A DNA stretch of 49,158 nucleotides, taken from positions 1-49,158 of the forward strand of contig WQRQ01000007.1 of assembly GCA_009786685.1 (NCBI GenBank), in the 5' to 3' direction. Under the pieces are notes generated by a model, which saw only the letters and a list, made by a program, of their open reading frames with translations, was not told the DNA's origin and did not search any database. This stretch comes from Defluviitaleaceae bacterium. Its GTDB lineage: Bacteria > Bacillota > Clostridia > Lachnospirales > WQUN01. Below are positions 3,187 to 26,914 of this stretch, piece after piece; within the stretch, counting starts at the first letter, position 1, and every line of letters begins with the position of its first letter. The position numbers and the translations under genes were made by a program.

Positions 3187-4887
3187 TCAAGTCAAATACT
3201 TATTAAGCGTATCATAAACAACATTAAAATCCACGGGTTTGCCGATGTGGCCGTTCATGCCGGCGGCGAAGCATTGCTCTACGTCTTCGGTAAAGACGTT
3301 TGCTGTTACGGCTACTACGGGCAAGCTTTCTGTTGTGCCCAGTGCGCGTATTTGCCTTGTGGCTTCCAGGCCGTCCATTTCCGGCATTTGGATATCCATA
3401 AAAACCAGGTCGTACAAATCGGGATTTGTAGAAACCGCATCCAACGCCTCACGGCCGTTTACTGCGATATCTATTGTCAAATTTGTGTTTTCCAGTTGTG
3501 CGAGCATTATTTCGCGGTTTATTTCGATGTCATCTACCAGCAAAATCCGTTTGCCGGGGAAGCTTGGGGTTTTGTTAAAGCTTTCTAACCGCTTTAGCTT
3601 TACCGTAAAAAAGAATGTAGAGCCGTTGCCGACATTGGATTTTACGTCGATTTTGCCGTCCATCAGCTCTACCAGGCGTTTTGATATCGCCAGCCCAAGC
3701 CCCGTTCCGCCGTATTCTCTTGCGGCACTTTTGTCCGCCTGTTCAAACATTTCAAAGATACGGTCTTTTTCTTCAAAGGAAATACCGATACCCGTATCGC
3801 TAACCTCAAAGCGCAGCTCACAAATACCGTCCTTTACCTGCTCCAGCACCACAGAAAGCCTTACACTACCGCCCTCCGGCGTGTATATTATTGCATTGGA
3901 AAGCAGATTTGTGATTATCTGTGTAAGCCGCTGGTCGTCGCCCTCATACATATCCGGCATGTATTCATCTATGTTAACGGTAAAGCAATGATTTTTTTCT
4001 TCCAGCTTTAGCTTGTTTAGTGCAACGATTTTTTCCATCATTTCTCTAAGATTAAACGACGTTTTTTTAAGCTCCATGTTGTTGGCTTCTATTTTGGACA
4101 TGTCCAGCACGGAGTTAATTATGCCGAGCAAATGATGCGCCGCCTCGGATATTTTATCCAGAGAATCCTCTGTTTTATGAGGGTCTTTGGAGTTTTTTGC
4201 GATATCGGCCATGCCTATGATTGCGTTCATAGGGGTGCGCATTTCGTGGCTCATGGCGGAAAGAAACTCGCTCTTTGCACGGCTTGCAGAAATCGCTTTT
4301 TGCAAAGCCTCTTCCAGTTGCTTGCGCGTGTCACAAATCACCTCGTCTTGGTGATTTCTAAGGAAAACGCTGGCAAACATAAGCCCCGTGGACGCCATCA
4401 TCTCCATCTCGTCATCTGTAAAGGTGCGTTCCTCTTCGCAGTCGTCTACGCTAAAAAAGCCGATAAATTTTTCATCGAGAAATAACGGCAAAATTACAAT
4501 GGATTTCATTTCATAGTAGCCAAGAAACGCCGATTCGTCAGGCGGAAGGGTAGCAACAGGCGCGTTGATGTATTCCTTACGCATAAACCTTTCCAGCCAG
4601 CCATTGCGGTCGCTGTACGCACCGCTAAGCCCCAGAGGGACTTCTATACGTTTTTTCCCCAGTTCGCTTAGCCACTCGTAGCGCATTACAAAATGTAACT
4701 CACCATTAACCATCTCGTTGCGCCAAATTTGTACACGGTCTACGTTTAGGCATTCGCCTACGATTTCCATGCCCTTCATAAGAGCTTCCATGCAGTCTTT
4801 TTCGTTTGCAGTAAGCAAAACCTCGGCGGCTCGGCTTACTGTACGAAGCAACTGCTCACGGTATTTATGTATGCTGTAGTCAGACAT
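3187..4887 (-). CDS. Hybrid sensor histidine kinase, GAF-HisKA-HATPase-REC
   Basis: 566 residues with no membrane segment, so cytoplasmic. A GAF-type sensor domain (~residues 18-178) is followed by a short coiled coil, a HisKA domain with phospho-accepting His214 in SHEMRTPMN, and an HATPase with N-box Asn327/Asn331, G1 DTGIG (364-368) and G2 GGTGLGLA (393-400). A C-terminal receiver (~446-566) has acidic pair DD452-453, phospho-Asp498 in VFMDIQMPEMDG, Thr528 and Lys550. All catalytic residues are present. There is no Hpt domain and no adjacent response regulator, so the phosphorelay partner is elsewhere. Similar proteins signal to diverse outputs; the stimulus cannot be read from sequence. 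Confidence 0.92.
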   Translation of the reverse strand: MSDYSIHKYREQLLRTVSRAAEVLLTANEKDCMEALMKGMEIVGECLNVDRVQIWRNEMVNGELHFVMRYEWLSELGKKRIEVPLGLSGAYSDRNGWLERFMRKEYINAPVATLPPDESAFLGYYEMKSIVILPLFLDEKFIGFFSVDDCEEERTFTDDEMEMMASTGLMFASVFLRNHQDEVICDTRKQLEEALQKAISASRAKSEFLSAMSHEMRTPMNAIIGMADIAKNSKDPHKTEDSLDKISEAAHHLLGIINSVLDMSKIEANNMELKKTSFNLREMMEKIVALNKLKLEEKNHCFTVNIDEYMPDMYEGDDQRLTQIITNLLSNAIIYTPEGGSVRLSVVLEQVKDGICELRFEVSDTGIGISFEEKDRIFEMFEQADKSAAREYGGTGLGLAISKRLVELMDGKIDVKSNVGNGSTFFFTVKLKRLESFNKTPSFPGKRILLVDDIEINREIMLAQLENTNLTIDIAVNGREALDAVSTNPDLYDLVFMDIQMPEMDGLEATRQIRALGTTESLPVVAVTANVFTEDVEQCFAAGMNGHIGKPVDFNVVYDTLNKYLT

Positions 4888-5084
4888 TTGAGCTTGTCCC
4901 CTTTTCGCATGTGTTACGTCATATTTTATAACGGGAATCGGTTACTTGTCAACCCGTTAGTCGCACCCGCCGTGCGCGGTTATTTCGCCTTAAACGGGAA
5001 AGAGAATGTGCGCCCGCTTTTTTATCGTGCGCGTCCCTGTGGCGACTTGTCAAGGACTTTTTCATCATCTAGCCTAAAAAGGTG

Positions 5085-5123
5085 TAAAAAAGCCCGACAA
5101 AAGGGTTTATTCTCCTGTCGGGC
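5085..5123 (-). terminator. Terminator downstream of the Rpn-family pseudogene
   Basis: GCCCGACA (5092-5099) pairs with TGTCGGGC (5116-5123). On the minus strand a T-tract follows, placing it about 45 nt after the pseudogene stop. Confidence 0.8.
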
Positions 5124-5166
5124 TGGCAATACTTTGTGCGTTTACATCCAACTTGGAATGGAAACT

Positions 5167-6127
5167 CTAGTTAGGCACAAGTCCCAAAACATCATTTTCA
5201 GACATATTCATTAGTGCAGCTATCTCTGAAATAGTGCGCCCTGTGTCAATAAGTGCTTTGATGGCGGCAGATAGACGAGGCTCATATTCTCTCGTTACCT
5301 CTGCTCGACCTTCTGCTCTCGCTTCTCTCCTTGTTTCCTGTACACTATAAACTCCGGCGGCTATCAATTCACTCACGCCCCTCTCGTCAATTTTTTCTAC
5401 AAAATCTTTAATTTCGTCTTGTGGTACGTCAATACGAGTAAATAATACTGAAATAACTTTAACAAGCAATTCCTTTAAATGTCGCGGTATATTAAGACTG
5501 TCTAATTTTTCCTTTGACAGTTTACCCCATTCTTTGAAAGTTTCGGGGTCTTTCATCTTATCAACCATCATAAACAGCGAAACAATGTTGTTGAAATTTG
5601 CCAAATCCTCAAAGCTGTACTTTTTTAAGTTTATAAGTTCGTACTCAAACTTGGGAATGTATTTCTCGAAAGTATCGCTCATTTCCGTGCGGTGCAAAAA
5701 ATTCATTTCAGCAGTCCACTCGTCATCCCCATCGTAAAAAATAATCGGGATAATCGGAGGGTATTTGAAATTTTTTGTATGTGTAACGGGCGTGTTTTTG
5801 TTGACCTCTTTTTCATATGCGTCAAGTATCAATGCAATATAAAGTAACATCTTAAACGGTGCGCGGAAGTTTAGATTCATGCTCCACAATGGTGATTACA
5901 AAAAGTGGAGCATTGCCCTTTAGATTGACCCTTTTAATAGTATCTCCATCTTTTTGCTCGGATATTAAAGAAATCAATCGTTCTGTAACATCTTCAATAT
6001 CGGAGGGGGATACATCGCTAAGGATTTCAATAGGAACAAAACTTTTTAAAAATTCTGAAAAAAGCTCGTTCTCAGATAATATTGCTTTTACGCTGTTATC
6101 CTGTGCCTTATGAAGTGTTTCCGCCAA
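5167..6127 (-). pseudogene. Frameshifted Rpn-family PD-(D/E)XK nuclease/transposase-like gene
   Basis: Two overlapping frames make one protein of the Rpn/PDDEXK transposase-like family. The first (TTG 6127, GGAG upstream) begins MAETLHKAQDNSVKAILSEN and ends at VEHES. The second continues NFRAPFKMLLYIALILDAYE and runs to a C-terminal tail with the helix-turn-helix-like ISEIAALMNMSENDVLGL. Removing one A from the AAA near 5871 joins them as IVEHES-NFRAPFKMLL, the expected family sequence. It may therefore be a true inactivating frameshift or a single-base sequence error. These genes are usually multicopy and autonomous. It has a promoter and a terminator of its own. Confidence 0.8.
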
Positions 6128-6171
6128 ATCTTATCTGCTCCTGTCGCACGGGTGCGTTCCCCTATGCGTAG

Positions 6172-6200
6172 ATTATAATTGACCACACAAGGATTTTCAA
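6172..6200 (-). promoter_or_regulatory. Promoter of the Rpn-family gene
   Basis: On the minus strand TTGAAA (6195-6200) and a perfect TATAAT (6172-6177) are separated by 17 nt, 45 nt ahead of the TTG start. Confidence 0.7.
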
Positions 6201-6486
6201 TATTAGAATATATAAATTTCTCATGTGTACAAATACTTCTTCAAAAACTACCTCTTTATACGCTCCCATGGTTTTGCGGTTTTGCCAAAATTCCAAGGGG
6301 CTTTTTTGTAGTGTCAAGGGGACACTTCTCCAAACGACTTTGTAGTGTTTATGCGGGTCGGCAAGCTTTTAGCCAAAACATCTAAACCGCTACAGCTTCC
6401 GCATATCCTGCATTTATGCTATACTTCAAAGTCACAAAAATAAAACATGCCGCGCAAAGAACGCGTGCGTTGAACGGAGAAAAATT
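6201..6486. other. Intergenic region upstream of typA
   Basis: No gene is seen. A possible weak -10 for typA (TATACT, 6420-6425) lies 61 nt before the start, without a convincing -35. GGAGAAAA directly precedes the typA ATG. Confidence 0.4.
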
Positions 6487-8301
6487 ATGGCAATCAGAAA
6501 CATAGCAATAATAGCCCACGTAGACCACGGAAAAACCACCCTCGTAGACCAGCTACTATGGCAAAGCGGCGCATTTCGTGAAAACCAGCACGTAGCGGAG
6601 CGCGTAATGGACTCGGGCGACATAGAGCGCGAGCGCGGAATCACCATCCTTGCAAAAAACACATCCGTACAATACGAAGGCACAAAAATAAATATCATAG
6701 ACACCCCCGGCCACGCCGATTTTGGCGGCGAGGTGGAGCGCGTGCTTAAAATGGTAGACGGCGTAGTCCTGGTAATAGACGCCTTCGAAGGCCCAATGCC
6801 GCAGACAAAATTTGTGCTAAAAAATGCCCTCGACCTCGACCTGCCCATAGTTTGCTGCGTAAACAAAATAGACCGCCCGGAAGCCCGCCCCGACGAAGTA
6901 GTAGACGAAGTCCTGGAGCTTTTTATGGAATTAGAAGCCTCGGAATCACAACTCGATTCCCCCTTCATCTACGCCAGTGCAAAAAAAGGTTGGGCGTCGA
7001 AAGAATCCACAGACGAAGGCCTCGGCATGAAGCCCCTCTTCGAAGCCCTAATCGAGTACATCCCCGCACCAAAAGGCGACCCTTCTGCCGCCACAAAAGC
7101 CCTAATCTACAATATAGACTACAGCAGCTACTTAGGCAGAATCGGCATAGGCCGCGTAGTAAACGGCACAACAAAAGTAGGCGACACCCTAACCATAGTA
7201 AACATCCACGAGCCGGATATACAAAAATCCGTAAAAATATCCAAGCTATATGTATTCTCCGGCCTCGACCGAGAGGAAGTAACCGAGGCCAGCGTAGGCT
7301 CCATAATAGCAATCTCGGGCATCCCGGAAATTAAAATAGGCGACACCCTAACTGCCCCGGAAGACCCCACACCGCTCCCCTTCAGCAAAATCTCCGAGCC
7401 GACGCTCACCATGCATTTTATGGTAAACGACAGCCCCTTCGCAGGCAAAGAAGGCAAATATCTAACCTCGCGCCAAGTCCGCGAACGCCTGTACAAAGAA
7501 CTAAACACCGACGTATCCCTACGCGTAGAAGACACCGAAAGCACCGAGGTATTTAAAATATCGGGCAGAGGCGAGCTTCACCTTTCCATCCTGATAGAGA
7601 CAATGCGTCGTGAAGGCTACGAATTCCAAGTCTCCAAGCCCACAGTCCTGTTCAAAGAAATCGACGGCGAACGCCAAGAGCCGATGGAATCCGTAACCAT
7701 AGACGTCCCCGAAGAATTTACAGGAGTAGTAATCCAAAAGCTGGGCAGCCGCCGCGGCGAAATGCTAAACATGGCCGCCTCAAAAGGCGGCTACACGCGC
7801 CTCGATTTCTCCATCCCCGCACGCGGCCTAATCGGTTATCGCAGCGAGTTCCTCACCGACACAAAAGGCAACGGCATAATAAACACGCTCTTCGACGGCT
7901 ACGCGCCCTACAAAGGCGACATCCCCGAGCGTCCCCAAGGCTCGCTAATCTCCTTCGAAACAGGCAAGGCCGTACCCTACGGCATGTACAACGCCCAAGA
8001 ACGCGGCAGCCTCTTTGTAGTCCCCGGCACACAGGTATACACAGGCATGGTGGTAGGCAGAAACGCCCGCAGCGGCGACATGGAAGTAAACATATGTAAG
8101 CAGAAAAAACTCCTAAACGTCCGCGCAGCAGGCAAAGACGAAGCCCTACGCCTGGTCCCCGCAGAAGTCCTCTCCCTGGAACAATGCCTGGAGTTCATAA
8201 CCGAAGACGAACTGGTAGAAGTAACCCCCGAAAACCTACGTATCCGAAAAAAAATCCTCGACTCCGGTATGCGCCAACGCGCCACCAAAGCCAGGGGATA
8301 A
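6487..8301 (+). CDS. typA: Translational GTPase TypA/BipA
   Basis: 604 residues, the usual family length. GTPase motifs are intact: G1 AHVDHGKTTL near the N-terminus, the switch-I region RERGITILAKN, G3 DTPGHADFGGEVERV and G4 NKIDR. Domains II, III and V and the BipA-specific C-terminal domain follow, including GRGELHLSILIETMRREGYE and the conserved end VEVTPENLRIRKKILD. BipA binds the ribosome near the factor-binding site and helps assembly and translation at low temperature or under stress. It is single-gene and convergent with ptsI, with only one base between the stops. The coding strand is unusually rich in C and A. Confidence 0.97.
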   Translation: MAIRNIAIIAHVDHGKTTLVDQLLWQSGAFRENQHVAERVMDSGDIERERGITILAKNTSVQYEGTKINIIDTPGHADFGGEVERVLKMVDGVVLVIDAFEGPMPQTKFVLKNALDLDLPIVCCVNKIDRPEARPDEVVDEVLELFMELEASESQLDSPFIYASAKKGWASKESTDEGLGMKPLFEALIEYIPAPKGDPSAATKALIYNIDYSSYLGRIGIGRVVNGTTKVGDTLTIVNIHEPDIQKSVKISKLYVFSGLDREEVTEASVGSIIAISGIPEIKIGDTLTAPEDPTPLPFSKISEPTLTMHFMVNDSPFAGKEGKYLTSRQVRERLYKELNTDVSLRVEDTESTEVFKISGRGELHLSILIETMRREGYEFQVSKPTVLFKEIDGERQEPMESVTIDVPEEFTGVVIQKLGSRRGEMLNMAASKGGYTRLDFSIPARGLIGYRSEFLTDTKGNGIINTLFDGYAPYKGDIPERPQGSLISFETGKAVPYGMYNAQERGSLFVVPGTQVYTGMVVGRNARSGDMEVNICKQKKLLNVRAAGKDEALRLVPAEVLSLEQCLEFITEDELVEVTPENLRIRKKILDSGMRQRATKARG

Positions 8302-8302
8302 G

Positions 8303-10006
8303 TCACCTTTGCCGATTGCAGTAATTATATATATCTTCTCTGGAGGACATGTTTAATATAACATCTATTTGCTTTTCCAACTCCTGCTTAGAGAGGTTGC
8401 ATATTTCTTTTTTTGCTCGAAGTATCGACTGAGCAGACATGCTAAACTCGTCTAGCCCACACGCCAGCAAAAAGGGTATCATGTTTACATCTCCTGCGCT
8501 TTCTCCGCACATGCCTACCATTATTCCTGCTTTTTTTGCCGATTTTATCACATTGTAAATAGAGCGCATTACCGCAGGTTCATATGTGGAGTATAGATAC
8601 TGTACTTTTTCGTTGCCCCTGTCTACCGCCATCGTGTATTGGGTGAGGTCATTAGTACCTATGCTAAAAAAATCTGCTTCTTTTGCCAGTATATCCGCGA
8701 TTAGGCATGACGCGGGTGTTTCTATCATGATGCCTATCTGTATGTCTTTGTTAAATGGCTTTCCTTCTTTTTCAAGCTCCGTTTTCAACTCGAATATTAT
8801 CGCCTTTGCTTGGCGAAGCTCTGTCACGGTAGATATCATGGGTAGCATTATTTTTATGTTTCCGTATCTGCTCGCACGTAAAAGTGCCCGTAACTGTATG
8901 CTAAACATCTCTTTGTTTCCAAGGCATAGCCGTATCGCTCTGTATCCGAGGAAGGGATTTTCTTCCTTTTTCATATCAAGATACGGCACGTCTTTGTCAC
9001 CGCCTATATCCAGCGTCCTTATTATCACCGGTTTGTCGCCCATGGCTTCTGTCACTTTTTTGTAGACTTCAAATTGAGTGTCTTCGTTTGGTAGGCTGTC
9101 CCTGCCCATAAACAAAAACTCTGTCCTAAAAAGCCCGATACCATCGGCATTATTTTTTATGACCGCCTCTAAATCCTCCGTCCCGCCTATGTTTGCTGCG
9201 ATTTCTACATGTACGCCGTCGAGGGTTATACTTTGGCGGTTTTTGTATACCTCAAGCTCTTTTTTGTAGATGTCATATTCGCTTGCCAGATTTTTATATC
9301 TTGCGAGGTCTGCCTCGGTGGGGTTTATTATCACCTCGCCTGTACTGCCGTCGAGTGCTATGGTGTCGCCTGTTTGTACATTCTTTAACATGCCTTCCAT
9401 GCCAAGGACTGTAGGTAGCTCCATGGCCTTTGCCATTATTGCCATATGACCGGTTATGCCGCCAATTTCTGTTATTACGCCTTTTATTACGGTTTTGTTT
9501 ATGCGACCTGTTTCTGATGGAGTCATGTCACGTGCGATTATTATGCATTCTTGCGATATATCCTCGATACTGTGTCTTTTTTTACCTGTTAGTATCTCCA
9601 GTATGCGAGCCTTTATATCTGCCAAATCATGCGCACGCTCTCTCATATATTCATCCGGCATCGCAGAAAACATAGCTATGACTGACGTAAATGCATTCAC
9701 CACCGCCGCCTCTGCCGTCGCCATGTTATCCTTTATCTCCGCCAGCACACTGTCTTTTACATCGGGGTCGTTTGCCATTATCGCATGAGCCTCTATTATA
9801 GAAGCTTGCTCTACACCGGCATTTTTTTCTACTTGTGCGGCAAGTACAGTCGTATCCTCCACAAATTTTTTTACAGCGTTATTATACCTTTTGACCTCCT
9901 CCTCTGCCGAAAGCACAGAGCGAGCCGCAAACACGGCATCTTCTTTTTTAAGCACAAAAGCCTTAGCTATCACTATGCCATCGCACGCACCTATCCCACG
10001 ATACAT
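8303..10006 (-). CDS. ptsI: PTS Enzyme I (phosphoenolpyruvate-protein phosphotransferase), locus-specific copy
   Basis: 567 residues from ATG 10006, 10 nt after AAAGGG; a GTG three codons upstream lacks spacing. EI takes phosphate from PEP and passes it to HPr. The N-terminal HPr-binding domain is followed by the phospho-His motif GGITGHMAIMAKAMELP (His187 from this start), where typical EIs read GGxTSHxAIxAR, so the flanking residues deviate. The PEP-binding barrel has FRTEFLFM, GTNDLTQYTMAVDRGN and active-site Cys in VGMCGESAGD. The gene starts 14 nt after the regulator's stop, in one operon with it and divergent from the permease genes. It is probably a dedicated second EI rather than the housekeeping one, since it deviates at the active site and lacks the usual ptsH-ptsI pairing. 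Confidence 0.93.
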   Translation of the reverse strand: MYRGIGACDGIVIAKAFVLKKEDAVFAARSVLSAEEEVKRYNNAVKKFVEDTTVLAAQVEKNAGVEQASIIEAHAIMANDPDVKDSVLAEIKDNMATAEAAVVNAFTSVIAMFSAMPDEYMRERAHDLADIKARILEILTGKKRHSIEDISQECIIIARDMTPSETGRINKTVIKGVITEIGGITGHMAIMAKAMELPTVLGMEGMLKNVQTGDTIALDGSTGEVIINPTEADLARYKNLASEYDIYKKELEVYKNRQSITLDGVHVEIAANIGGTEDLEAVIKNNADGIGLFRTEFLFMGRDSLPNEDTQFEVYKKVTEAMGDKPVIIRTLDIGGDKDVPYLDMKKEENPFLGYRAIRLCLGNKEMFSIQLRALLRASRYGNIKIMLPMISTVTELRQAKAIIFELKTELEKEGKPFNKDIQIGIMIETPASCLIADILAKEADFFSIGTNDLTQYTMAVDRGNEKVQYLYSTYEPAVMRSIYNVIKSAKKAGIMVGMCGESAGDVNMIPFLLACGLDEFSMSAQSILRAKKEICNLSKQELEKQIDVILNMSSREDIYNYCNRQR

Positions 10007-10020
10007 AAAAAACACGCCCT

Positions 10021-11928
10021 TTACAAAAAGAATCTGAAAACATCAATCAAATCTCCGTAGCTTGTTGTTTTCATAATATTAGAAAACGCCTGACTATTGG
10101 ACACAATTTCCGTAAGAAATTTAAATATATCCTTAAAAAGTCTGCGGTCTTTTTTGTTTAGCGAAATAAGAAAAAAGATGTTTACTTTGTTATCCCCCCA
10201 AGGTATGGGGGTAGGGTTTATAGAAATTGATATATGCGAGGATAAATCCCTGTCGGTGAGGGTGTGTGCTATGGCTATATTGCCGTATGAGCTGGGGGAT
10301 ATACGCTCGTGGGCGTATATTTCTTTTTTAAAGCTGCTGTGTACGTATTTCTTTTTTATCATGTAGTTGCTCATTGTTTCTATGGCGTCCTCCGGTGTTT
10401 TAAACTCGTGACCAAAAAAGCATAAATCTTCTCGTATAAACACCTCGATTTTAGACAGAATATTGTTTTTACGTTTTAATTGTTTAAAATTTTCTATTTT
10501 GCTCATTATTGCCAGTACATCGGAGTCGTTAAAAAATGGGCTGATTACTATATTTGGCAGGCTCAAATTAGTTAGCTCATAGGTAGATACTATCAGGTCT
10601 ATACTATCTAATTCGACTTGCATTTGGTCGTAGCTTGTGTATACGTTTTGGATAAACAGACTGTCATTAAATTTTTGTGTCAGTTTTTTGTATATGTTTT
10701 TTATAAATTTATGATAGTCGGTGGCAAATATCACGCACGAGAGCTTTTCTTGGTTTACAGTTTGCTCCTCTAACATCACGCCTATATGCAGTGCGATGTA
10801 TGCTATCTCATCTTCCGAGAGGTTGTAGCCTGTCCTTTTTATTATAATGCGAGAAACATATACTGCTATCACATGTAAAAACGGGTGCTCTTTTTTTATG
10901 TTTGTAAACTGTCCATTATCCAGAGTTTTGTTTTTGTCCGCTCGTATCAGCATGTTTTTTAGGTGCATGGCAAAGCGAACCATCAGTTTTTCGCACTTTA
11001 GGTCTATGGAGTATGTTTCGTTTACGGAGTCTATGATTTCCATTACTAATTTTTTTACTTTTTTGCCCACCAGCGGCTCTATGTCCTCAAAGTCCGGCAG
11101 GGCGGATTTTTGGGCGATGGCGCGGGTAGACATTAGTATCGACGCCTCCACTATGCCTCCGGCGGTATAGCTGCCCTCGTAGTGTCTCTTTAAGCTGTAG
11201 GATATGTCTTCTACAATTTTTATCAAATCAGGGTCGGAAAACACCTCGTTGCTCTCAGAGTATGCATTGTGGCTATTGCCATGCTCCATACACACGGCAA
11301 GGTGCAACACATAGTTAAGTAGTGAGTATTCGTCTAAAAAATATTCGTATTTTACAAATACATCTATGACTATCTGCCTTATATCAATGAGGTTTACCGA
11401 CTTAAAAAACTGTTGTATGTTTATGAGCGAAAAATTGGAATGCTCCATCTCATCACGGATGAGGGACAATGCAAACTTTTGCCTATCCTTGTCGCTACCT
11501 ATTACAGATATCTTGCCATTGCGTATTTTAAAATAAAGGCCGTAGTTAGAGAGCTCTTTTTTTAGATTAGGAAGCTCGTTTTTAAATGTCGTAGGAGAGA
11601 TACAAAAATAGTCGGCTAAGTCATCCATATCCGGAGACTGGTTAAAAATTATAAGCTGCTCAAAAATATACTTTCTGCGCTCGGCATAGTTTGTTGGTAT
11701 GACAGAGGTGCTATATGCTAGGTTGAATGACGCTACCTCGTCTTCTTTAAGGTAATACCCCTTTACAGAGGAAATTATTATATTGTTTTCGCTGTTGATT
11801 TTTGCAATAAGATAGCGAACCTTGCGCGGGGTGGTGTTTAGCTTTTGCGCGAGGTCTTTGCATGTTGTCCATGTACTTGTTTCTCTTAGCTGTTTTATGA
11901 GCCCAAGGCATTTTTTATCCTCAGTCAT
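10021..11928 (-). CDS. PRD-containing transcriptional regulator (BglG/LicR/MtlR type) of the PTS operon
   Basis: 635 residues. Two N-terminal DNA-binding helix-turn-helix regions (CKDLAQKLNTTPRKVRYLIA and DDLADYFCISPTTFKNELPN) are followed by PRD1 and PRD2 (the latter in GYNLSEDEIAYIALHIGVML). Then come an EIIB-like and an EIIA(fru/mtl)-like domain. The EIIB-like part reads CVIFATDYHKF where a phospho-Cys loop would be, so that site looks lost. The EIIA part keeps a His in NIAIAH. The family activates PTS operons when its PRD and EII-like domains are suitably phosphorylated. The divergent palindrome at 11998-12043 is its most likely operator. It is co-transcribed with ptsI. Confidence 0.9.
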   Translation of the reverse strand: MTEDKKCLGLIKQLRETSTWTTCKDLAQKLNTTPRKVRYLIAKINSENNIIISSVKGYYLKEDEVASFNLAYSTSVIPTNYAERRKYIFEQLIIFNQSPDMDDLADYFCISPTTFKNELPNLKKELSNYGLYFKIRNGKISVIGSDKDRQKFALSLIRDEMEHSNFSLINIQQFFKSVNLIDIRQIVIDVFVKYEYFLDEYSLLNYVLHLAVCMEHGNSHNAYSESNEVFSDPDLIKIVEDISYSLKRHYEGSYTAGGIVEASILMSTRAIAQKSALPDFEDIEPLVGKKVKKLVMEIIDSVNETYSIDLKCEKLMVRFAMHLKNMLIRADKNKTLDNGQFTNIKKEHPFLHVIAVYVSRIIIKRTGYNLSEDEIAYIALHIGVMLEEQTVNQEKLSCVIFATDYHKFIKNIYKKLTQKFNDSLFIQNVYTSYDQMQVELDSIDLIVSTYELTNLSLPNIVISPFFNDSDVLAIMSKIENFKQLKRKNNILSKIEVFIREDLCFFGHEFKTPEDAIETMSNYMIKKKYVHSSFKKEIYAHERISPSSYGNIAIAHTLTDRDLSSHISISINPTPIPWGDNKVNIFFLISLNKKDRRLFKDIFKFLTEIVSNSQAFSNIMKTTSYGDLIDVFRFFL

Positions 11929-11997: not shown

Positions 11998-12043
11998 AAA
12001 AATACTGTATTTTGTTATACCCGTGACAAAATACAGTATTTTT
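11998..12043. promoter_or_regulatory. 18-bp perfect palindrome in the divergent PTS promoter region
   Basis: AAAAATACTGTATTTTGT (11998-12015) and its exact complement ACAAAATACAGTATTTTT (12026-12043) flank 10 nt. Each arm also contains a nearly self-complementary AAATACTGTATTT, so two dimer sites could be present. It lies between the divergent regulator and IIA starts, the expected place for the PRD regulator's operator. It could also form an RNA hairpin. No clear -35/-10 pair is visible beside it, as expected for an activator-dependent promoter. Confidence 0.7.
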
Positions 12044-12112
12044 ATATTTTGCGATACGGTATACACTTCCCTCACAAAATTAACACAATAAAACAGGAGG
12101 GAGGTCTTGGTC

Positions 12113-12424
12113 ATGCATTCTAACTTGGAGGAAACTGTTGTAACTATGATAGCAAACGCAGGTGACAGCAGAAGTTCATCTATTGAGGCTATCGAGTATG
12201 CCAAGGGAGGGGACTTTTTAAAGGCAAGAGATAGCCTCGACCATAGCGAAGAAGCTCTGCAAAAAGCTCACAAGGCTCATACGCAGCTTTTGGCACAAGA
12301 AGCAAAAGAAGGGTTGGAGCTTTCGTTTTTGATAGTACACGCCACAAACCATGTATCAATTGCAGATGTATCTAAGCATTTTGCAACAGAGCTTGTTTTT
12401 CTCTATGAAAAAATAATGACTTAA
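12113..12424 (+). CDS. PTS lactose/cellobiose-family IIA component
   Basis: 103 residues starting 8 nt after GGAGG. The all-helical IIA(Lac/Cel) fold is evident: SSSIEAIEYAKGGDFLKARD, SEEALQKAHKAHTQLLAQEA, then the active-site helix LSFLIVHATNHVSIADVS. The phospho-accepting His is His76. The family usually reads HAQDH here, its Asp binding the metal at the trimer centre; this protein has HATNH, so both Gln and Asp are replaced. It takes phosphate from HPr and gives it to IIB. First gene of the operon, with IIB 15 nt downstream. Confidence 0.92.
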   Translation: MHSNLEETVVTMIANAGDSRSSSIEAIEYAKGGDFLKARDSLDHSEEALQKAHKAHTQLLAQEAKEGLELSFLIVHATNHVSIADVSKHFATELVFLYEKIMT

Positions 12425-12439: not shown

Positions 12440-12754
12440 ATGCTAAACATAGTTTTACTGTGTCAATACGGTGCAAGTACGGGTATGCTCGTAGACAAAA
12501 TTATGGAGGCGGCAAAAGCAAAAAACATCGAGGTAATAGTAAATGCCTACCCCGTGGGGGAGGTAGCAAAGGTAATAGATGGTGCGGACATTATCCTGCT
12601 GGGCCCTCAGGTAAGGTTTAAGCTAAACTCCTTAAAAAAAGACTACGAAAGCAAAAACGTACCCATGATTACCATAGAGCCTACAGATTACGGCAGGCTA
12701 AATGGTGAAAACATCTTAAACTCAATACTTTCGCACCTAGAAGCTATTAAATGA
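12440..12754 (+). CDS. PTS lactose/cellobiose-family IIB component
   Basis: 104 residues behind AAAGGAGGGG. It has the IIB(Cel) P-loop-like active site LLCQYGASTGML with phospho-Cys8, followed by an alternating beta-alpha pattern including DIILLGPQVRFKLNSLKKDY and a final helix. It receives phosphate from IIA and passes it to the sugar during transport through IIC. Length and motif are normal for the family. It sits between IIA and IIC with short gaps, as in cellobiose/chitobiose PTS operons. Confidence 0.95.
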   Translation: MLNIVLLCQYGASTGMLVDKIMEAAKAKNIEVIVNAYPVGEVAKVIDGADIILLGPQVRFKLNSLKKDYESKNVPMITIEPTDYGRLNGENILNSILSHLEAIK

Positions 12755-12775: not shown

Positions 12776-14101
12776 ATGATGAGTTCTCAAACAGACACTA
12801 ATCAATCAAAATTTGGCGCAAAGCTGGAGGCCATGACCGAAAAGATAACGACAGGCATTATGCCTTTTGCAGAAAAGATGCAGTCGTACAGCTTTATCGG
12901 CGCACTTAGTGAGACATTTATGATTCTTATGCCAATATTTATCATAGGCTCATTTGCCGTTTTGCTTGCGTTTGTAGACATAGGGCCGTGGCAGGCGATT
13001 ATGGCAGAGGTTCCTGCCGTACGTCGTACATTCCAGTTTATGCAGTTTACTACCCTTAGTCTCATTGCGTTTTATGTACTGCTTATACTTCCTTATCGAT
13101 ACGCCTCGCGGCTTGGCATGAAAGAGGCATTAGCTGTCATGCCTATTACCGTGGCTTCTTTCCTCGCAATTACACCTACAGAGCTTTATTCTGCTATCCC
13201 CGCAGGTTGGCTCGGTCACCAAGGGCTACTTACCGCAGTCCTCATGTCCTTTTTAGTAGTACGCGTTACAAAGTTTTTCTTGGACAAAAGAATTTGTATC
13301 AGAATGCCCGCCGGTGTGCCAAAATTTGTAGAAGATGGATTTTCTGTAATGGTTCCCGGCGTTGTGCTTGTGGGTGTTTTTGCAGTCATAAACCATCTGT
13401 TTGCACAAACAGAGCTTGAAACTGCGCATAATATTATTTATAGGGCATTACAGATTCCTTTGCAGCGTGTAGGTCTTTCGTTATTTGGGCTTACTCTTAC
13501 CCAGACACTCTCTACCCTATTTATGTTTGTGGGGCTACATGCGTCTACCATCGTAGGCTTTACACACCCGATACAGCAAGCCGCAGGGCTGGAAAATCTC
13601 GAAGCATGGCAGGCAGGCTTACCCTTGCCTAACGTAGCCGCATGGGGCATTAGCGGATTTATGAGCATAGGCGCGGGCGGCAACATGCTCTCTGCTACTC
13701 TGTCTGTACTCCTCTTCTCTAGGAGCAAGAGATTTAAGTCTATAGGTAAGGTAGCTATCGTACCCGGTATATTTGGCATTGGCGAGCCCATGCTTTTTGG
13801 ACTGCCGGTAATGCTTAACCCGTTACTGTTTATCCCATTCATTTTTGTTACATTCTTTAACACTATAGTCGCGTATCTCATCATCTCTGTGGGACTCGTG
13901 GGCAGATTTACGGGAGTAATGCTACCGTGGACCACGCCGCCTATTATTAACGTGTTCCTGTCGAGTAGTACGCCTGTACGTGCTGTTATCGCACAGCTCA
14001 TTATCATCGCGATAAACCTAATGATATGGTATCCGTTTATACGCTCCGCAGACAAAGTCGCACTCAAGGAAGAAGAAGCTCTCGTAGCGGCGGGCGCGTA
14101 A
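12776..14101 (+). CDS. PTS cellobiose-type permease IIC component
   Basis: 441 residues with about ten hydrophobic segments and a short charged N-terminus. The EIIC signature GIGEPMLFGLPVMLNPLLFI (residues ~327-346) is intact, with the conserved Glu-Pro near the sugar-binding site. HASTIVGFTHP and GAGGNMLSATLSVLLFSRSK also match the lactose/cellobiose family. It forms the membrane channel that takes up a beta-linked disaccharide or aryl-beta-glucoside with phosphorylation. GGAGGGAAT precedes the start. Substrate identity cannot be read from the sequence; the downstream GH1 gene supports a beta-glucoside. Confidence 0.95.
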   Translation: MMSSQTDTNQSKFGAKLEAMTEKITTGIMPFAEKMQSYSFIGALSETFMILMPIFIIGSFAVLLAFVDIGPWQAIMAEVPAVRRTFQFMQFTTLSLIAFYVLLILPYRYASRLGMKEALAVMPITVASFLAITPTELYSAIPAGWLGHQGLLTAVLMSFLVVRVTKFFLDKRICIRMPAGVPKFVEDGFSVMVPGVVLVGVFAVINHLFAQTELETAHNIIYRALQIPLQRVGLSLFGLTLTQTLSTLFMFVGLHASTIVGFTHPIQQAAGLENLEAWQAGLPLPNVAAWGISGFMSIGAGGNMLSATLSVLLFSRSKRFKSIGKVAIVPGIFGIGEPMLFGLPVMLNPLLFIPFIFVTFFNTIVAYLIISVGLVGRFTGVMLPWTTPPIINVFLSSSTPVRAVIAQLIIIAINLMIWYPFIRSADKVALKEEEALVAAGA

Positions 14102-14122: not shown

Positions 14123-15997
14123 ATGTATATCCACCCTAAATACCCCAGCTTGTTTTCTCCCTTAAAAATCAACAAGCTTGTGCTAAAAAACCGCATTTTT
14201 TACGCACCTGTAGAGGCGTACTATGACAGGGCTCTCTCCGGCTGTGCGGTGATGATGAGGGGGACGAGCGGCACGCTAAACGACCCAAAATGCAGGCTAA
14301 CTCCCGGACCATGGCTTTTTGCAGAAACAGAGCTGCCCCGCATAAAAAAAGAACTTATGATATTAAAACGTGCAGGGGCACTTACCTCATTAGAAATCTG
14401 CCACGCGGGGATGTTTGCACACATTCCCGCAGGAGATTTCGCTATCGGGCCGAGCGATACAGTCAGAGACGACGGTGTCGAAGTAAAGGGCATGGACGCA
14501 CAAATGATACAGCATGTGCTGGACAAATTTGTAGAAACAGCTGTATGTGCAAAAAAAATAGGATACGATATGATAATGTTGCATTTTGCCCATGGGTGGC
14601 TTCCTTCACAGTTTTTTTCTACGACGATAAACAAGCGCGAAGACAAATATGGCGGCAGCTACGAAAACCGTTTTAGATTTCCAAAGATGATACTGCAAGC
14701 TGTGCGTGACGCATTGGGTGCAGATTATCCCATAGACATGCGTATAAGCGCGTATGAAAACTACGACGGCGCGGCTCCACATGCAGAAATAATTAGTTTT
14801 ATCAGTGAGGTCTCAAAAAAAGGGCTTATAGATGCGGTTAATGTTTCATATGGCAGTGTTTTGTCTGAGGGCAAGTTGGAGGGTACTCCTTTTTGTCCAA
14901 ATATGTACATCGCAGACTATGCGGAAAAAATAAAAAAATCCGTGAGCATACCTGTGATAGTAGTGGGCAAAATAATGACTCCACAAGAAGCAGAAGAAGT
15001 GATTTTTAACAAAAAAGCAGACGCTGTAGTAATAGCGCGAGCAAGCATAGCAGACCCATGGTGGGCAAAAAAAGCCTTTGAGTGCCGAGCAGAAGATATC
15101 GTACCATGTATAGAGTGTGGTAAATGCTTTGACAAGAGATGTGCAGTGCAGCTACGCAACTACCTTGAGGATATGGTTCCAAACGAGCTGCAAAAAGCAC
15201 AAACGCAAAAAAAGGTAGTAGTTTGCGGCGGAGGGCCTGCCGGTATGAAAGCTGCGGTTACTGCGGCACAAAGAGGGCATGACGTTACCCTTTTTGAAAA
15301 ATCTCCCGCCTTGGGCGGACTAACAAAGGCCGCAGACCACGAGCCGCACAAAGCAGGTCTGCTTCGTTACAAAGAATATTTAATTACCCAACTCAAAAAA
15401 AGCAGCGTTAAAATTTTACTAAACACAGACGCAACACCACAAGTCGTGGCTGCTGAAAAGCCCGACCTGCTAATCCTAGCGATGGGAGCGTCACCCATAG
15501 CCCCCTGCATAAACGGGACAGAAAACGCAGTACAAATAATGGACGTATACGCCCGCACAAAGACCGTAGGAAAAAAAGTAGCTATTATCGGAGGAGGGCT
15601 TACAGGCAGTGAGCTCGCCATAGCCCTGACTATCAAAGGGCATATCGTAACAATAATAGAAAAAACAAAAGAGATAGGTGGGGAGTATGAAAAAGTAACA
15701 TATCCTGCATACACACCTTACCAAATCCTATCAAAATTGCAAAATGTAACGCTACTTCAAAATACCGACTGTCTGGAAATAAAAAAAGACGGTTTAGTGA
15801 TATCCACCCCCGATGCAGGGATAAAAGAGATAAAAGCGGACACAGTAATACTCTCCGTAGGCTTTAAAAGCAATAATGATAACCTGTATAACTACTACGG
15901 CATAACACCTCACACAACGGTAATCGGTGATTTGCGCAGGCCTGCGACGATACGAGAATGCACAGAAGAAGGATACTTTGCTTCTTCTGATATATAA
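14123..15997 (+). CDS. NADH:flavin oxidoreductase/2-enoate reductase-like enzyme, copy 1
   Basis: 624 residues with the architecture of 2-enoate and 2,4-dienoyl-CoA reductases and bile-acid BaiCD/BaiH: an FMN TIM barrel (~1-325), a 4Fe-4S segment, and FAD/NAD(P) Rossmann domains (GGGPAG at 369-374 and GGGLTG near 490). The barrel has YGGSYENRFRF. The usual catalytic HGAHGY region reads HFAHGWLP (154-161), so the proton-donor Tyr is Trp. The cluster cysteines are 329, 332, 335 and 340 (CxxCxxCx4C), tighter than the usual last gap of about 11. It probably reduces an activated C=C bond. GGAGG precedes the start; it lies 21 nt after IIC in the same operon. Confidence 0.9.
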   Translation: MYIHPKYPSLFSPLKINKLVLKNRIFYAPVEAYYDRALSGCAVMMRGTSGTLNDPKCRLTPGPWLFAETELPRIKKELMILKRAGALTSLEICHAGMFAHIPAGDFAIGPSDTVRDDGVEVKGMDAQMIQHVLDKFVETAVCAKKIGYDMIMLHFAHGWLPSQFFSTTINKREDKYGGSYENRFRFPKMILQAVRDALGADYPIDMRISAYENYDGAAPHAEIISFISEVSKKGLIDAVNVSYGSVLSEGKLEGTPFCPNMYIADYAEKIKKSVSIPVIVVGKIMTPQEAEEVIFNKKADAVVIARASIADPWWAKKAFECRAEDIVPCIECGKCFDKRCAVQLRNYLEDMVPNELQKAQTQKKVVVCGGGPAGMKAAVTAAQRGHDVTLFEKSPALGGLTKAADHEPHKAGLLRYKEYLITQLKKSSVKILLNTDATPQVVAAEKPDLLILAMGASPIAPCINGTENAVQIMDVYARTKTVGKKVAIIGGGLTGSELAIALTIKGHIVTIIEKTKEIGGEYEKVTYPAYTPYQILSKLQNVTLLQNTDCLEIKKDGLVISTPDAGIKEIKADTVILSVGFKSNNDNLYNYYGITPHTTVIGDLRRPATIRECTEEGYFASSDI

Positions 15998-16020: not shown

Positions 16021-16242
16021 ATGATTAGAGTTTCTTCGTCAAGGATTAAAGATATCCTTGCAGAAGCAGATGGGCTGGTACTCGGTGATGTGACATATAC
16101 CCTGCACAGCGGTCCCAAAGGAATAGCCGCTACCCTAAAAACAAATGCGGATGACAACGACGCGGCGATGGCCACACTAAAAAAATATCTCAAAGAAAAA
16201 TTTCCTGCATTAATAATATATTTTGAGCCGGAAGGAGCTTGA
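16021..16242 (+). CDS. Small uncharacterised protein of the PTS operon
   Basis: 73 residues behind ATAGGAGTT. It begins MIRVSSSRIKDILAEADGLV, continues GDVTYTLHSGPKGIAATLKT, then has an acidic loop (DDNDAA) and a helix LKKYLKEKFPALIIYFEPE. The pattern beta-alpha-beta-beta-alpha-beta suggests a small compact domain, not a membrane protein. I recognise no family. Its place between two enoate-reductase-like genes, with the next start 4 nt after its stop, makes a role in that reaction or in PTS control plausible but unproven. Confidence 0.75.
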   Translation: MIRVSSSRIKDILAEADGLVLGDVTYTLHSGPKGIAATLKTNADDNDAAMATLKKYLKEKFPALIIYFEPEGA

Positions 16243-16246
16243 TAAC

Positions 16247-16444
16247 ATGGCAAACGATTATAATAACTCAGGAGAAAAAAACTATCGGATAAGCGTAGTA
16301 ATAGTGAGCTTTTTGCTCCCCATCGTAGGTATATTTATGTGCATTAGTAACTGGAAAGAAAATTTTTACGCGGCAAAAATTTATGGGTTTTCTGCCGTGG
16401 CAGGATTTGTTATGAACTTTATTTTTGCACCGATGGTGTTTTAG
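16247..16444 (+). CDS. Small two-helix membrane protein of the PTS operon
   Basis: 65 residues from ATG 16247, 9 nt after GGAAGGAG; the frame is open further upstream but overlaps the previous gene. A short polar N-terminus is followed by a hydrophobic segment (VVIVSFLLPIVGIFMCISNW) and a second one (IYGFSAVAGFVMNFIFAPMV), forming a hairpin in the membrane. No family is recognised. It may be a small partner of the IIC permease or an unrelated membrane anchor. Confidence 0.75.
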   Translation: MANDYNNSGEKNYRISVVIVSFLLPIVGIFMCISNWKENFYAAKIYGFSAVAGFVMNFIFAPMVF

Positions 16445-16467: not shown

Positions 16468-16749
16468 ATGTATAAAAAAAGAGTAACGGTGATAAACAAA
16501 ACAGGTCTGCACGCTCGCCCTGCCGCCGCCTTTGTAACAGAAGCGAGCAAATTTGACAGTGATATCACCATAGAGAAATTAAGCGACACGGAAAAAAGTG
16601 ACCCTGTAAACGCAAAGGCCATTATTAAGCTGCTTTCCCTGCTAATATCCAAGGGGGACGAGATAGAAATAACAGCCACAGGCGATGACGAAAACGCAGC
16701 GGTAGACACCCTGGTAGAGCTAATAGAATCCGGCTGTAAAGAAACATAG
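16468..16749 (+). CDS. ptsH: HPr-family phosphocarrier lacking the regulatory serine
   Basis: 93 residues behind GAGGAGG. His15 in NKTGLHARPAAAFV is the PEP-dependent site and is intact. Where HPr normally has AKS(46), the HPr-kinase site, this protein reads AKA at 50-51 (VNAKAIIKLLSLLISKGDEI), after a small insertion near residues 40-46. It should still carry phosphate from EI to IIA but not be phosphorylated by HPrK or act as a CcpA co-repressor. It is inside the operon, not next to ptsI, and is probably the dedicated partner of the divergent EI. Confidence 0.93.
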   Translation: MYKKRVTVINKTGLHARPAAAFVTEASKFDSDITIEKLSDTEKSDPVNAKAIIKLLSLLISKGDEIEITATGDDENAAVDTLVELIESGCKET

Positions 16750-16761
16750 GAGGTGCAAGGC

Positions 16762-18696
16762 ATGAAGGTAAAATATCCTAAGCTTTTCAGCCCACTCAGG
16801 GTCGGCAATGTTATGCTGAAAAACAGAATTGCGTCCGCGCCCATGGGCATACCACACAAAACAGTACTCTCCGGCGTAAACTACAGCGGCATGAGCCTGC
16901 TTGATAAGTCTGCCGGGGGGGCAGGTATTATCATCGTAGGAGGCTCGTATCTCGGCGGGCTTTCCGGCGAGGATAATGCGTTTAATAAATATGCGAGGGG
17001 AACTACCCGCGAGGTACTTACTGTTATGAAGCAAAGCGGCGGTGTCGCCTGTATACAGTTTGGTTTTTTTTCGCAACGATTTGACGACGGCACATGCCTT
17101 GCGGTATCTGACGGGATAGACCCCTTTGGATTATCAGGCAAGGAAATGACAAAGGAACAGATAAAAGAACAAATCGATGTACTTTGCGATGATTGCATAA
17201 AAGCCAAAGACTTTGGGTTTGATATGATAATGCTGCACCTTGCGCACGACAGCCTGCACTCTATATTTATGTCACCCGGATGGAACAAACGCATAGATGA
17301 GTACGGCGGTTCATTAGAAAACAGAATGCGCTTGGGCAAAGAGATTATTACCCGCGTGCGCGAGGCTGTGGGGGCTGATTTCCCCGTGATGGCGCGGTTT
17401 AGCCGTCACCTTATGGTAGAGGAATCCTTTTCCGAGGATGACATGATGGCATTTATACATGAGGTTTATCCATACCTTGACATCGTTAATATTTCTGCCG
17501 GCGCAGACTGTGTAGGCGGCGTTAGCGTCGAGCAATATAGGGCAAACACCCATGTAAATCCACAGGCTCTCGACCCTAGGTTTTATAACCTGGAGTTCTG
17601 TGAGAGGGTAAAAAGGGAGCTTGGGGACAAGGTCGTAGTCGCGATAGTAGGTGCGGTGGGCGACCCCGCCATGTGCGAAAAATACTTATCAGAGGGTAGA
17701 TTTGACATGGTAATGATGGCGAGACAACTCACCGCAGACCCATACTGGCCAAAAAAAGCCCTCGAAGGACGCGACGAAGATATCGTCCCATGTATACGCT
17801 GTTCCCACTGCTACCATATCGCCACCATACACGAAAACATGCAATGCGCCGTAAACCCGCGCTTTAGGCGCGAAAACAGAGTACCACTCAGTCTTGCACC
17901 TTCCTCGGAGCCACAAAAAGTTGTAGTAATCGGCGGCGGCCCGGCAGGCATGAATGCCGCCCTCACCGCCTTTAAGCGGGGGCATAATGTCATTTTGCTG
18001 GAAAAAGAAAATGAGCCGGGCGGCCAAATGCATCACACAAAGTACGATAAGTTTAAAAACGATATCCGCATGTATCAAGATTATCTGATTGCGCAGTTGG
18101 GTAAAACCGCCGTGGATGTGCGCCTTGGTATAGACGCAAGCCACGACTATGTACGAGAGCTAAACCCCGACCATATCATCATAGCCGTAGGTGCAGATTT
18201 TACTACGCCGCCTATCAAGGGCATTGAGTTTTCAAAAGAAGCCACATCTATTTATCCAAGCATAACAGATATACGTAAAAAAACCGTGATAATAGGCGGA
18301 GGTACTATAGGCAGCGAGATAGCCTTACAGTTGGCACAAAACGGCTGTGACGTTACGCTGATAGAAAAAGGCAGTACACTGGCACAAACCGCTACATGGC
18401 TCTATAGGCATTCTTTATACGGGCATATCGAAAAATGCAAAAGCTTGCACATGCAGTTAAACTCGTCCGTAAAAGAAATCAAAGCAGACGGCGTAAGCTA
18501 TGTAGACACAAACGGCAAGGAGACCTTTGCGGAGGCGGAGCTAATCCTACATGCGACAGGCATGGCGTCTCGCAAAGAACTTGCGTTTAGCTTTTATGGC
18601 ATTACTCCAAACACATCAGTCGTTGGGGATTGCGACAAGGTAGGCAATATTAACCATGCCATAAATGATTCTTACTTTGTAGCCGCAAGCATATAA
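16762..18696 (+). CDS. NADH:flavin oxidoreductase/2-enoate reductase-like enzyme, copy 2
   Basis: 644 residues from ATG 16762, 8 nt after GGAGG. Same architecture as the first copy but clearly diverged: an FMN barrel with EYGGSLENRMRLG, 4Fe-4S cysteines 344, 347, 350 and 362 (CxxCxxCx11C, followed by AVNPRFRRE as in the family), and two Rossmann motifs (GGGPAG and IGGGTIGSE). The catalytic HGAHGY region reads HLAHDSLHS (159-167), so the usual Gly-Tyr is Asp-Ser. Two such diverged enzymes in one operon suggest two successive reductions or a heteromeric enzyme. It is followed 12 nt later by the glycosidase. Confidence 0.9.
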   Translation: MKVKYPKLFSPLRVGNVMLKNRIASAPMGIPHKTVLSGVNYSGMSLLDKSAGGAGIIIVGGSYLGGLSGEDNAFNKYARGTTREVLTVMKQSGGVACIQFGFFSQRFDDGTCLAVSDGIDPFGLSGKEMTKEQIKEQIDVLCDDCIKAKDFGFDMIMLHLAHDSLHSIFMSPGWNKRIDEYGGSLENRMRLGKEIITRVREAVGADFPVMARFSRHLMVEESFSEDDMMAFIHEVYPYLDIVNISAGADCVGGVSVEQYRANTHVNPQALDPRFYNLEFCERVKRELGDKVVVAIVGAVGDPAMCEKYLSEGRFDMVMMARQLTADPYWPKKALEGRDEDIVPCIRCSHCYHIATIHENMQCAVNPRFRRENRVPLSLAPSSEPQKVVVIGGGPAGMNAALTAFKRGHNVILLEKENEPGGQMHHTKYDKFKNDIRMYQDYLIAQLGKTAVDVRLGIDASHDYVRELNPDHIIIAVGADFTTPPIKGIEFSKEATSIYPSITDIRKKTVIIGGGTIGSEIALQLAQNGCDVTLIEKGSTLAQTATWLYRHSLYGHIEKCKSLHMQLNSSVKEIKADGVSYVDTNGKETFAEAELILHATGMASRKELAFSFYGITPNTSVVGDCDKVGNINHAINDSYFVAASI

Positions 18697-20118
<1,422 letters not shown>

Positions 20119-20124
20119 AAATAC

Positions 20125-20207
20125 TGCGGCTGAGAGGACTTGAACCTCCACATCCTTTCGGACACATGGACCTGAACCATGCGCGTCTGCCATTCCGCCA
20201 CAACCGC
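20125..20207 (-). tRNA. tRNA-Leu(CAG)
   Basis: 83 nt on the minus strand. The acceptor stem GCGGTTG/CAGCCGC with discriminator A, anticodon arm CATGG-TTCAGGT-CCATG (anticodon CAG), a long class-II variable arm (TGTCCGAAAGGATG) and the T arm GAGG-TTCAAGT-CCTC are all visible. CCA is not encoded. Confidence 0.95.
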
Positions 20208-20253
20208 ATAAAAGTAATTTTAATACCGCCACTAAAAATTGTCAAATAAAAAA

Positions 20254-25603: not shown

Positions 25604-26914
25604 CTATCTGCGGGTGATTTTTGCTTCATATATTATATATGGGTGTAAGCATCCGGTTAGAAGGCGAAAGCCACGCTCCAAAAACTGCTCGCTCCCGCCG
25701 ATTGCTTCGAAGGCGTCAAGCGAAAGTATTGCTTCCAGCGTAAATTCTGCTTGGGGGGCTACTTCTGTGAAGGCGAGCCATGCCCATGGGCCGTCCATCG
25801 CGCCGATTGCAAAATGTATCGTGGAATCGGAGGCGTTTCTGCCGCGGACAAAAAAGTCGTAGTCGCTTTCTTCGAAGTTTAGGAACACATCGCCCCATTG
25901 TGTAAGGGCAACATCCAGCGCGTCCCATGTATTTGTGCGTTCGCTTACAAAAATGGCGTTGCCGTAAGGCCCTTCCACGATTTCGAAGGTGGGGTCTCCC
26001 GCTTGCATAAGGAAGGGATTCCAGCCCATGTCGGGGACTTCAAAAATAACAGCCCCGTTGCCGCGCAGCCCAACTTCTTGCGCCTGTGTAAACATATCTT
26101 CGGAAAGCGCGTAAACCACCAGCCCCGGGAGCCTTGGCCTACCTTCCACAAACAAAATATGCGACAAAGGCTGCCAGTCGGTAATCGGATTGTCGCTTAA
26201 ATCCATAATCGCGGTGAGGTTTGCAAGCGGTGCGATGTCTGTTATTTGGTTGTTGGTAAGAGTTAAAACCATTAAGTTTTCCAGCTCCGCAAGTGGCGAA
26301 ATGTCTGTTATTTGATTGTCATTTGCCAAAAGTGCTGTGATGTTAGTGTTAACAAGAAGCGAAATGTCGGACACTTGGTTATCGTTGATGTTTAATACTT
26401 CCAACGCAGGAAGACTTGAAATCAGCGTTAAATCGCTTAAACCTGTGTTGTGAATGTCCAGATGAGTAAGCTCCGTAAGGGTGGTGAGCGGGGAAAAATC
26501 CTCGATTTCGTTGCAGCCAAGGTTAAGCCAAGTAAGCCCCATCCCTTCAAGGGGCGAAATATCGGTGATATTGTTATCGTCCAAATTTAACCATACCAGG
26601 TTTTCCATATCGCGCAGGGGGATAATATCCTCGTTGCCCAGTCCACGAAGGCTCAAGTCCAACCCGTCGATGTCGAGTGGGAAATATTCTCCGCCTATGG
26701 ATATATACATGGAGGTATCGGCGGGTATCTCGTCCGTTTCGTTTGCTTCGCTTGGCTCGTCCGGCTCGGGGGCTGTTTCAATTTCTTCCCATTCCGCGTA
26801 AGTTGTATCAGCAAAATCGTAGTTTTCGTCCACGCCCGATAACACCAAAAGCAAAACAATCCCCGCAGCCAATACGGCGATAAACCCTAACCCAAGCAGC
26901 TTTTGATTATCCAT
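25604..26914 (-). CDS. Membrane-anchored leucine-rich repeat protein
   Basis: 436 residues. An N-terminal signal anchor (LGLGFIAVLAAGIVLLLVLSGV) is followed by an acidic, Glu/Pro-rich linker. About seven internalin-like LRRs of ~21-22 residues follow (repeat pattern LxxLxLxxNxIxDISPL, ~residues 80-250). The C-terminal half (~270-436) looks like an all-beta, carbohydrate- or ligand-binding-type module and is unnamed. It should face the outside and may sense an external ligand. Placed between the sigma and anti-sigma genes, with a 2-nt gap from the sigma gene. Confidence 0.85.
   Translation of the reverse strand: MDNQKLLGLGFIAVLAAGIVLLLVLSGVDENYDFADTTYAEWEEIETAPEPDEPSEANETDEIPADTSMYISIGGEYFPLDIDGLDLSLRGLGNEDIIPLRDMENLVWLNLDDNNITDISPLEGMGLTWLNLGCNEIEDFSPLTTLTELTHLDIHNTGLSDLTLISSLPALEVLNINDNQVSDISLLVNTNITALLANDNQITDISPLAELENLMVLTLTNNQITDIAPLANLTAIMDLSDNPITDWQPLSHILFVEGRPRLPGLVVYALSEDMFTQAQEVGLRGNGAVIFEVPDMGWNPFLMQAGDPTFEIVEGPYGNAIFVSERTNTWDALDVALTQWGDVFLNFEESDYDFFVRGRNASDSTIHFAIGAMDGPWAWLAFTEVAPQAEFTLEAILSLDAFEAIGGSEQFLERGFRLLTGCLHPYIIYEAKITRR

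Follow-up and report, generated by a model that had tools for sequence, protein, structure and literature searches.

In a Defluviitaleaceae genome, the HPr of the only detected PTS keeps His15 and carries alanine at the Ser46 position, beside a Ser-only Crh-like protein

HPr integrates uptake (His15) and metabolic state (Ser46) in one protein, and Ser46 has a role in the contact with HPrK/CcpA. Crh of Bacillus, the gene for which follows rapZ and whiA in that genus, is an HPr homologue dedicated to a single phosphorylation site, keeping Ser46 and losing His15. Outside Bacillus, a clostridial match to Crh has been reported already (PMC3526391). The His site is kept and Ser46 replaced in laboratory ptsH1 (HPr-S46A) mutants (PMC9631020, PMC7996215). 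HPr-S46A is described as not phosphorylatable at site 46, and ptsH1 as lifting the repression of several genes in B. subtilis (PMC9631020), while the PTS activity of the mutant protein "should be unaffected" according to its authors (PMC7996215). In Parageobacillus, ptsH1 alone left repression in place and cut growth, and no ptsH1 crh1 double mutant was recovered (PMC9631020). No natural HPr with His15, without Ser46 and beside Crh appeared in the titles and abstract openings of the literature searched.

The window, a 49,158-nucleotide stretch of a Defluviitaleaceae draft genome, encodes an HPr in a 93-aa ATG frame spanning exactly 16468-16749 (+), with a purine-rich ribosome-binding site, GAGGAGGAG, 5' of the start codon. 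The protein belongs to the HPr phosphocarrier family, scoring 108 bits against PF00381 (cut-off 23) and 89.3 bits against TIGR01003 (cut-off 47.9). Its histidine is intact at residue 15 in TGLHARPA, conforming to the GxHARPA motif of the phosphorylatable His, and since His15 is present the protein is not a Crh. The kinase site reads NAKAIIKLLSL with Ala at residue 51, and the protein thus falls outside the HPrK-controlled Firmicute HPrs, which have Ser46 or Thr there. NAKAI pairs with NAKSI of solved HPr/Crh chains behind a 5-residue insert; aligned with L094 and L047, its two nearest relatives, the insert is 3 residues long, and IIKLL stands where relatives have IMLLL. An AlphaFold2 model built from eight sequences (mean pLDDT 91) has the HPr fold and places Ala51 immediately before helix 52-56, where Ser46 normally stands; its best solved structural match was T. 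tengcongensis HPr (3le1). The original prediction of an intact His15, AKA in place of AKS(46) and a small preceding insertion (3-5 residues) was thereby borne out, and the alignment with HPr proteins that it proposed as a check placed no Ser or Thr at the kinase site. An alternative alignment with serine at that site was rejected, as none of the alignments made gave one.

The window HPr therefore shares with Firmicute HPr (ptsH; T. tengcongensis 3le1, B. subtilis HPr) the fold, the His15 motif and EI and EII partner genes, but differs in having Ala for Ser46 and the preceding 5-residue insert. It has the residue change of ptsH1 with the His site kept; unlike ptsH1, the allele is natural, comes with neighbouring changes and lies beside an intact Crh-like protein. 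Like Crh it has one of the two phosphorylation sites, but in the reverse arrangement.

The genes around it make up a sugar PTS locus. Enzyme I (EI; 8303-10015, -; PF05524/PF00391/PF02896), the only one found in the genome, and a PTS-responsive regulator with HTH_11/Mga, PRD and EIIA-2 domains (10021-11928, -) run opposite to an operon-like series on the + strand; where regulator and operon diverge, a 20-bp dyad (11998-12043) is a candidate operator. The series begins with EIIA (12107-12424; PF02255), EIIB (12440-12754; PF02302) and EIIC (12776-14101) of the lactose/cellobiose type, the last being the only PF02378 match in the genome. There follow a BaiCD/enoate-reductase-like flavin oxidoreductase (14123-15997; PF00724+PF07992, under the BaiCD cut-off), a 73-aa ORF with nothing over cut-off in profile searches (16021-16242), a 65-aa ORF without a Pfam match (16247-16444), the HPr gene, a second BaiCD/enoate-reductase-like flavin oxidoreductase (16753-18696) and a GH1 6-phospho-beta-glucosidase (18709-20118; NF007154 over cut-off). 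The set of EI, EIIA, EIIB, EIIC and phospho-glucosidase is thus complete within the window. LicR-licBCAH-type beta-glucoside operons share the PRD/EIIA regulator, EIIA/B/C and the 6-phospho-beta-glucosidase, but the window operon carries its own HPr and the two BaiCD-like flavoenzymes, which might reduce the unsaturated aglycone of an imported plant glucoside. A tRNA-Leu(cag) at 20124-20208 (-) lies right after the end of the operon and is a possible insertion point.

In the genome as a whole (G000), one EI, one PF02378-type EIIC and one His-bearing HPr were found, all inside the window; the assembly is a draft (195 contigs, 93.9% complete) and may lack a second His-bearing HPr. With the only EI and the only PF02378 EIIC found located here, this is not one insulated PTS among several. 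PF00381 matched one further place, L002, where Glu occupies position 15 and the serine site reads NAKSIMG. L002, lacking His15 and keeping Ser46, is Crh-like, and describing the window HPr as the reverse of Crh proved literally true within a single genome. The contig ends beside the L002 gene; in G005 (L037) and G010 (L049), the Crh-like gene follows rapZ and whiA, and hprK precedes it by a few genes. A profile of short Ser-only HPr relatives additionally recovered a mini-HPr (G000:C13:26752-26988), slightly under the Pfam cut-off, which has no His segment and reads DAKSIMGIFSLDL at the serine site, as do all six aligned members; strong matches to this type occurred in 33/38 family genomes. 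One HPrK was present, truncated at a contig end and scoring 309.7 bits against an equivalog cut-off of 240. With His15 on an HPr without Ser46, and with the Crh-like protein and the mini-HPr bearing only the serine, the two HPr phosphorylation sites therefore sit on different proteins in this genome.

No CcpA scored over the TIGR01481 cut-off of 442 in any of the 25/25 genomes searched, at a stringency that a distant CcpA could escape. The best scores in the window's genome came from two LacI-family proteins (136 and 108 bits), the gene of one adjoining ABC sugar-transporter genes and that of the other an aminotransferase. Within the genus, full-length LacI-family matches in the CcpA-searched sample were confined to G000 and G005, the same two that carry EI, and a distant CcpA substitute is therefore possible. 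The scan of all 49 kb returned no cre site in the operon; direct cre control was rejected, the single match at 25936 being at chance level. The original prediction that this HPr escapes CcpA control accordingly found no support, with neither a CcpA over cut-off in the genome nor a cre match in the operon.

The tree of 127 His-bearing HPrs (83 columns and weak at depth; duplicate loci dropped) placed the window HPr in a clade (100/83) with L047 (G018), L094, L074 (G041) and L096, all four of which keep Ser. A separate 25-sequence clade (100/99) took in the majority of HPrs that have Lys, Arg, Asn or Gln at 46; its members likewise keep His15 and mostly lack the serine. That clade spans the family, order and class samples, and outside the family its members often share their genome with an ordinary HPr that has Ser46. 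Membership of the window HPr in this class-wide clade was rejected by the tree. With the nearest four HPrs keeping Ser and the window protein outside the Lys/Arg46 clade, its Ala is, on this tree, its own loss of Ser46, recent and independent of that clade. L047 and L074 keep Ser in family genomes that also hold a Crh-like copy, and loss of Ser46 is therefore not required beside Crh. L094 and its own EI belong to a PTS operon of the galactitol type that includes SIS-domain genes (4768-9318). L095 gives the same HPr as L047, and the sample codes assign L094 and L095 to higher-termite gut MAGs (PMC7024585), from which we infer a termite-gut origin for the window. The window EI was 46-48% identical to the EIs of G028, G037 and G025 and only 36-37% identical to those adjoining three of the HPr's nearest relatives; on these identities, EI and HPr may have different origins.

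We surveyed 38 genomes of the family and compared them with samples of the rest of the order and the rest of the class. PF00381 matched in 35/38 family genomes and EI in 11 of 38. HPrK was detected in 25/25 of those searched; the first-look search missed HPrK in the B. subtilis control, and such misses are possible elsewhere. Among retrieved sequences, 32 family genomes held a Crh-like copy and 13 a His-bearing HPr. All His-less copies kept Ser46 (32/32), whereas 10/14 His-bearing copies had lost it (Lys 7, Ala 1, Arg 1, Asn 1) and four had kept it (Fisher 2.5e-7, related genomes treated as independent). Among genomes with a His-bearing HPr, those in which no such copy has Ser/Thr46 numbered 8/13 in the family, 1/9 in the rest of the order and 2/52 in the rest of the class sample (8/13 vs 3/61 elsewhere, Fisher 1.1e-5, relatedness uncorrected). 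Seven state changes suffice by parsimony over 126 His-bearing sequences, most losses lying in one clade. L050 (G012), with a deletion beside the site, was dropped from the 10/14 count and treated as Ser-keeping in the genome tallies. PF00381 matches G033:C12:62048 and G034:C39:9730 and a 45-aa fragment (G016:C212) lie outside the counts, and the named loci, including L094 and L095, outside the family and genome tallies.

Within the set, the window HPr was the only His-bearing HPr with Ala at 46. Ala46 as a common type was rejected: a fixed-spacing HARPA...AKA DNA pattern, which covers the usual spacing and passes over longer spacing such as the window's or other inserts, matched 1/391 class genomes, with in-frame stops there. 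In 31/32 Crh-like proteins of the family, Glu or Asp takes the place of His15, a possible mimic of phospho-His. In L011 (G039; 505-1746), an HPr domain carrying His15/Lys46 forms the C-terminal part of an antiterminator that has a CAT RNA-binding domain and a pair of PRDs.

We consider it fairly probable that the window HPr is the working phosphocarrier of the genome's only detected PTS and is closed to serine phosphorylation by HPrK, with the kinase arm borne by the Ser-only proteins. The residues, the gene set, the Ser-keeping close relatives and the family-wide pattern are as observed above; from them we infer the phosphotransfer activity, the HPrK block and the physiological effect. Phosphate would pass from EI to His15 of HPr and on to EIIA/IIB/IIC of the beta-glucoside operon, while the Crh-like protein and mini-HPr would carry the serine duty as HPrK substrates. 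When rising glycolytic intermediates activate HPrK, HPr~His-P, uptake and the PRD/EIIA regulator would remain untouched, and PTS activity would be set only by PEP supply and the operon's own substrate. This suggests a PTS unhooked from the usual kinase control, with the window HPr, by analogy, as a natural ptsH1-like carrier. The proposed escape from HPrK is supported by the loss of Ser46 in a genome that encodes the kinase, and the block itself would follow from the hydroxyl missing at site 46. Insulation from catabolite repression in general was too strong a claim, as control by HPr~P through the PRD/EIIA regulator at 10021-11928 is possible.

Because no CcpA was recognised, loss of Ser46 may have had little regulatory consequence, and the alternative that deserves most weight is a neutral one, in which the serine, unused on HPr without CcpA, drifted away and no insulation was selected. 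The 25/25 genomes without a CcpA over cut-off are in keeping with it, and IIKLL for IMLLL together with the insert fits relaxed constraint on helix B. The ubiquity of HPrK in the genomes searched and the invariance of Ser46 in His-less copies argue that the kinase arm is under constraint, however, and Ser46 contributes to the stability of the fold in other HPrs, as quoted in PMC7996215. We therefore regard neutral loss as unlikely, though a serious contender.

Far less probable is that the gene is decayed or misassembled and the change an error or a first step of decay. Ser to Ala could be a single base and the genome is a draft, but the frame is full length with a ribosome-binding site and an intact His site, the insert is in frame with several neighbouring changes, and the gene lies in an intact operon on a contig whose composition fits the genome (tetranucleotide r averaging 0.84 against 16 of its other stretches). 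Those 16 stretches gave r 0.20-0.50 against 13 stretches of other genera and 0.69 against one same-genus stretch, which makes misbinning of a contig from another genus unlikely. We give very little credence to HPrK control retained through another residue, whether Ser44 in the insert or Ser57 beyond the site: Ser39, Thr41 and Ser44 lie in the insert region close to the old site, but Ala51 occupies the kinase site in every alignment and in the model, and we know of no HPrK recognition of a displaced serine.

Beyond this genome, the reading of a phosphocarrier closed to HPrK extends only tentatively to a family rule, possible but on balance doubtful, in which the two HPr sites are parcelled out. 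HPrK with the Crh-like protein and mini-HPr would form a free-standing serine switch, mostly without a PTS or a recognised CcpA, and PTS cassettes would be gained occasionally, their HPrs kinase-blind with Ala, Arg, Asn or Lys at 46. The presence of an HPr gene alone is poor ground for inferring HPrK/CcpA control. In a natural genome where the two HPr sites are on separate proteins, the value of the His15/Ser46 coupling becomes testable, and the question arises of what HPrK and Crh do where CcpA is unrecognised.
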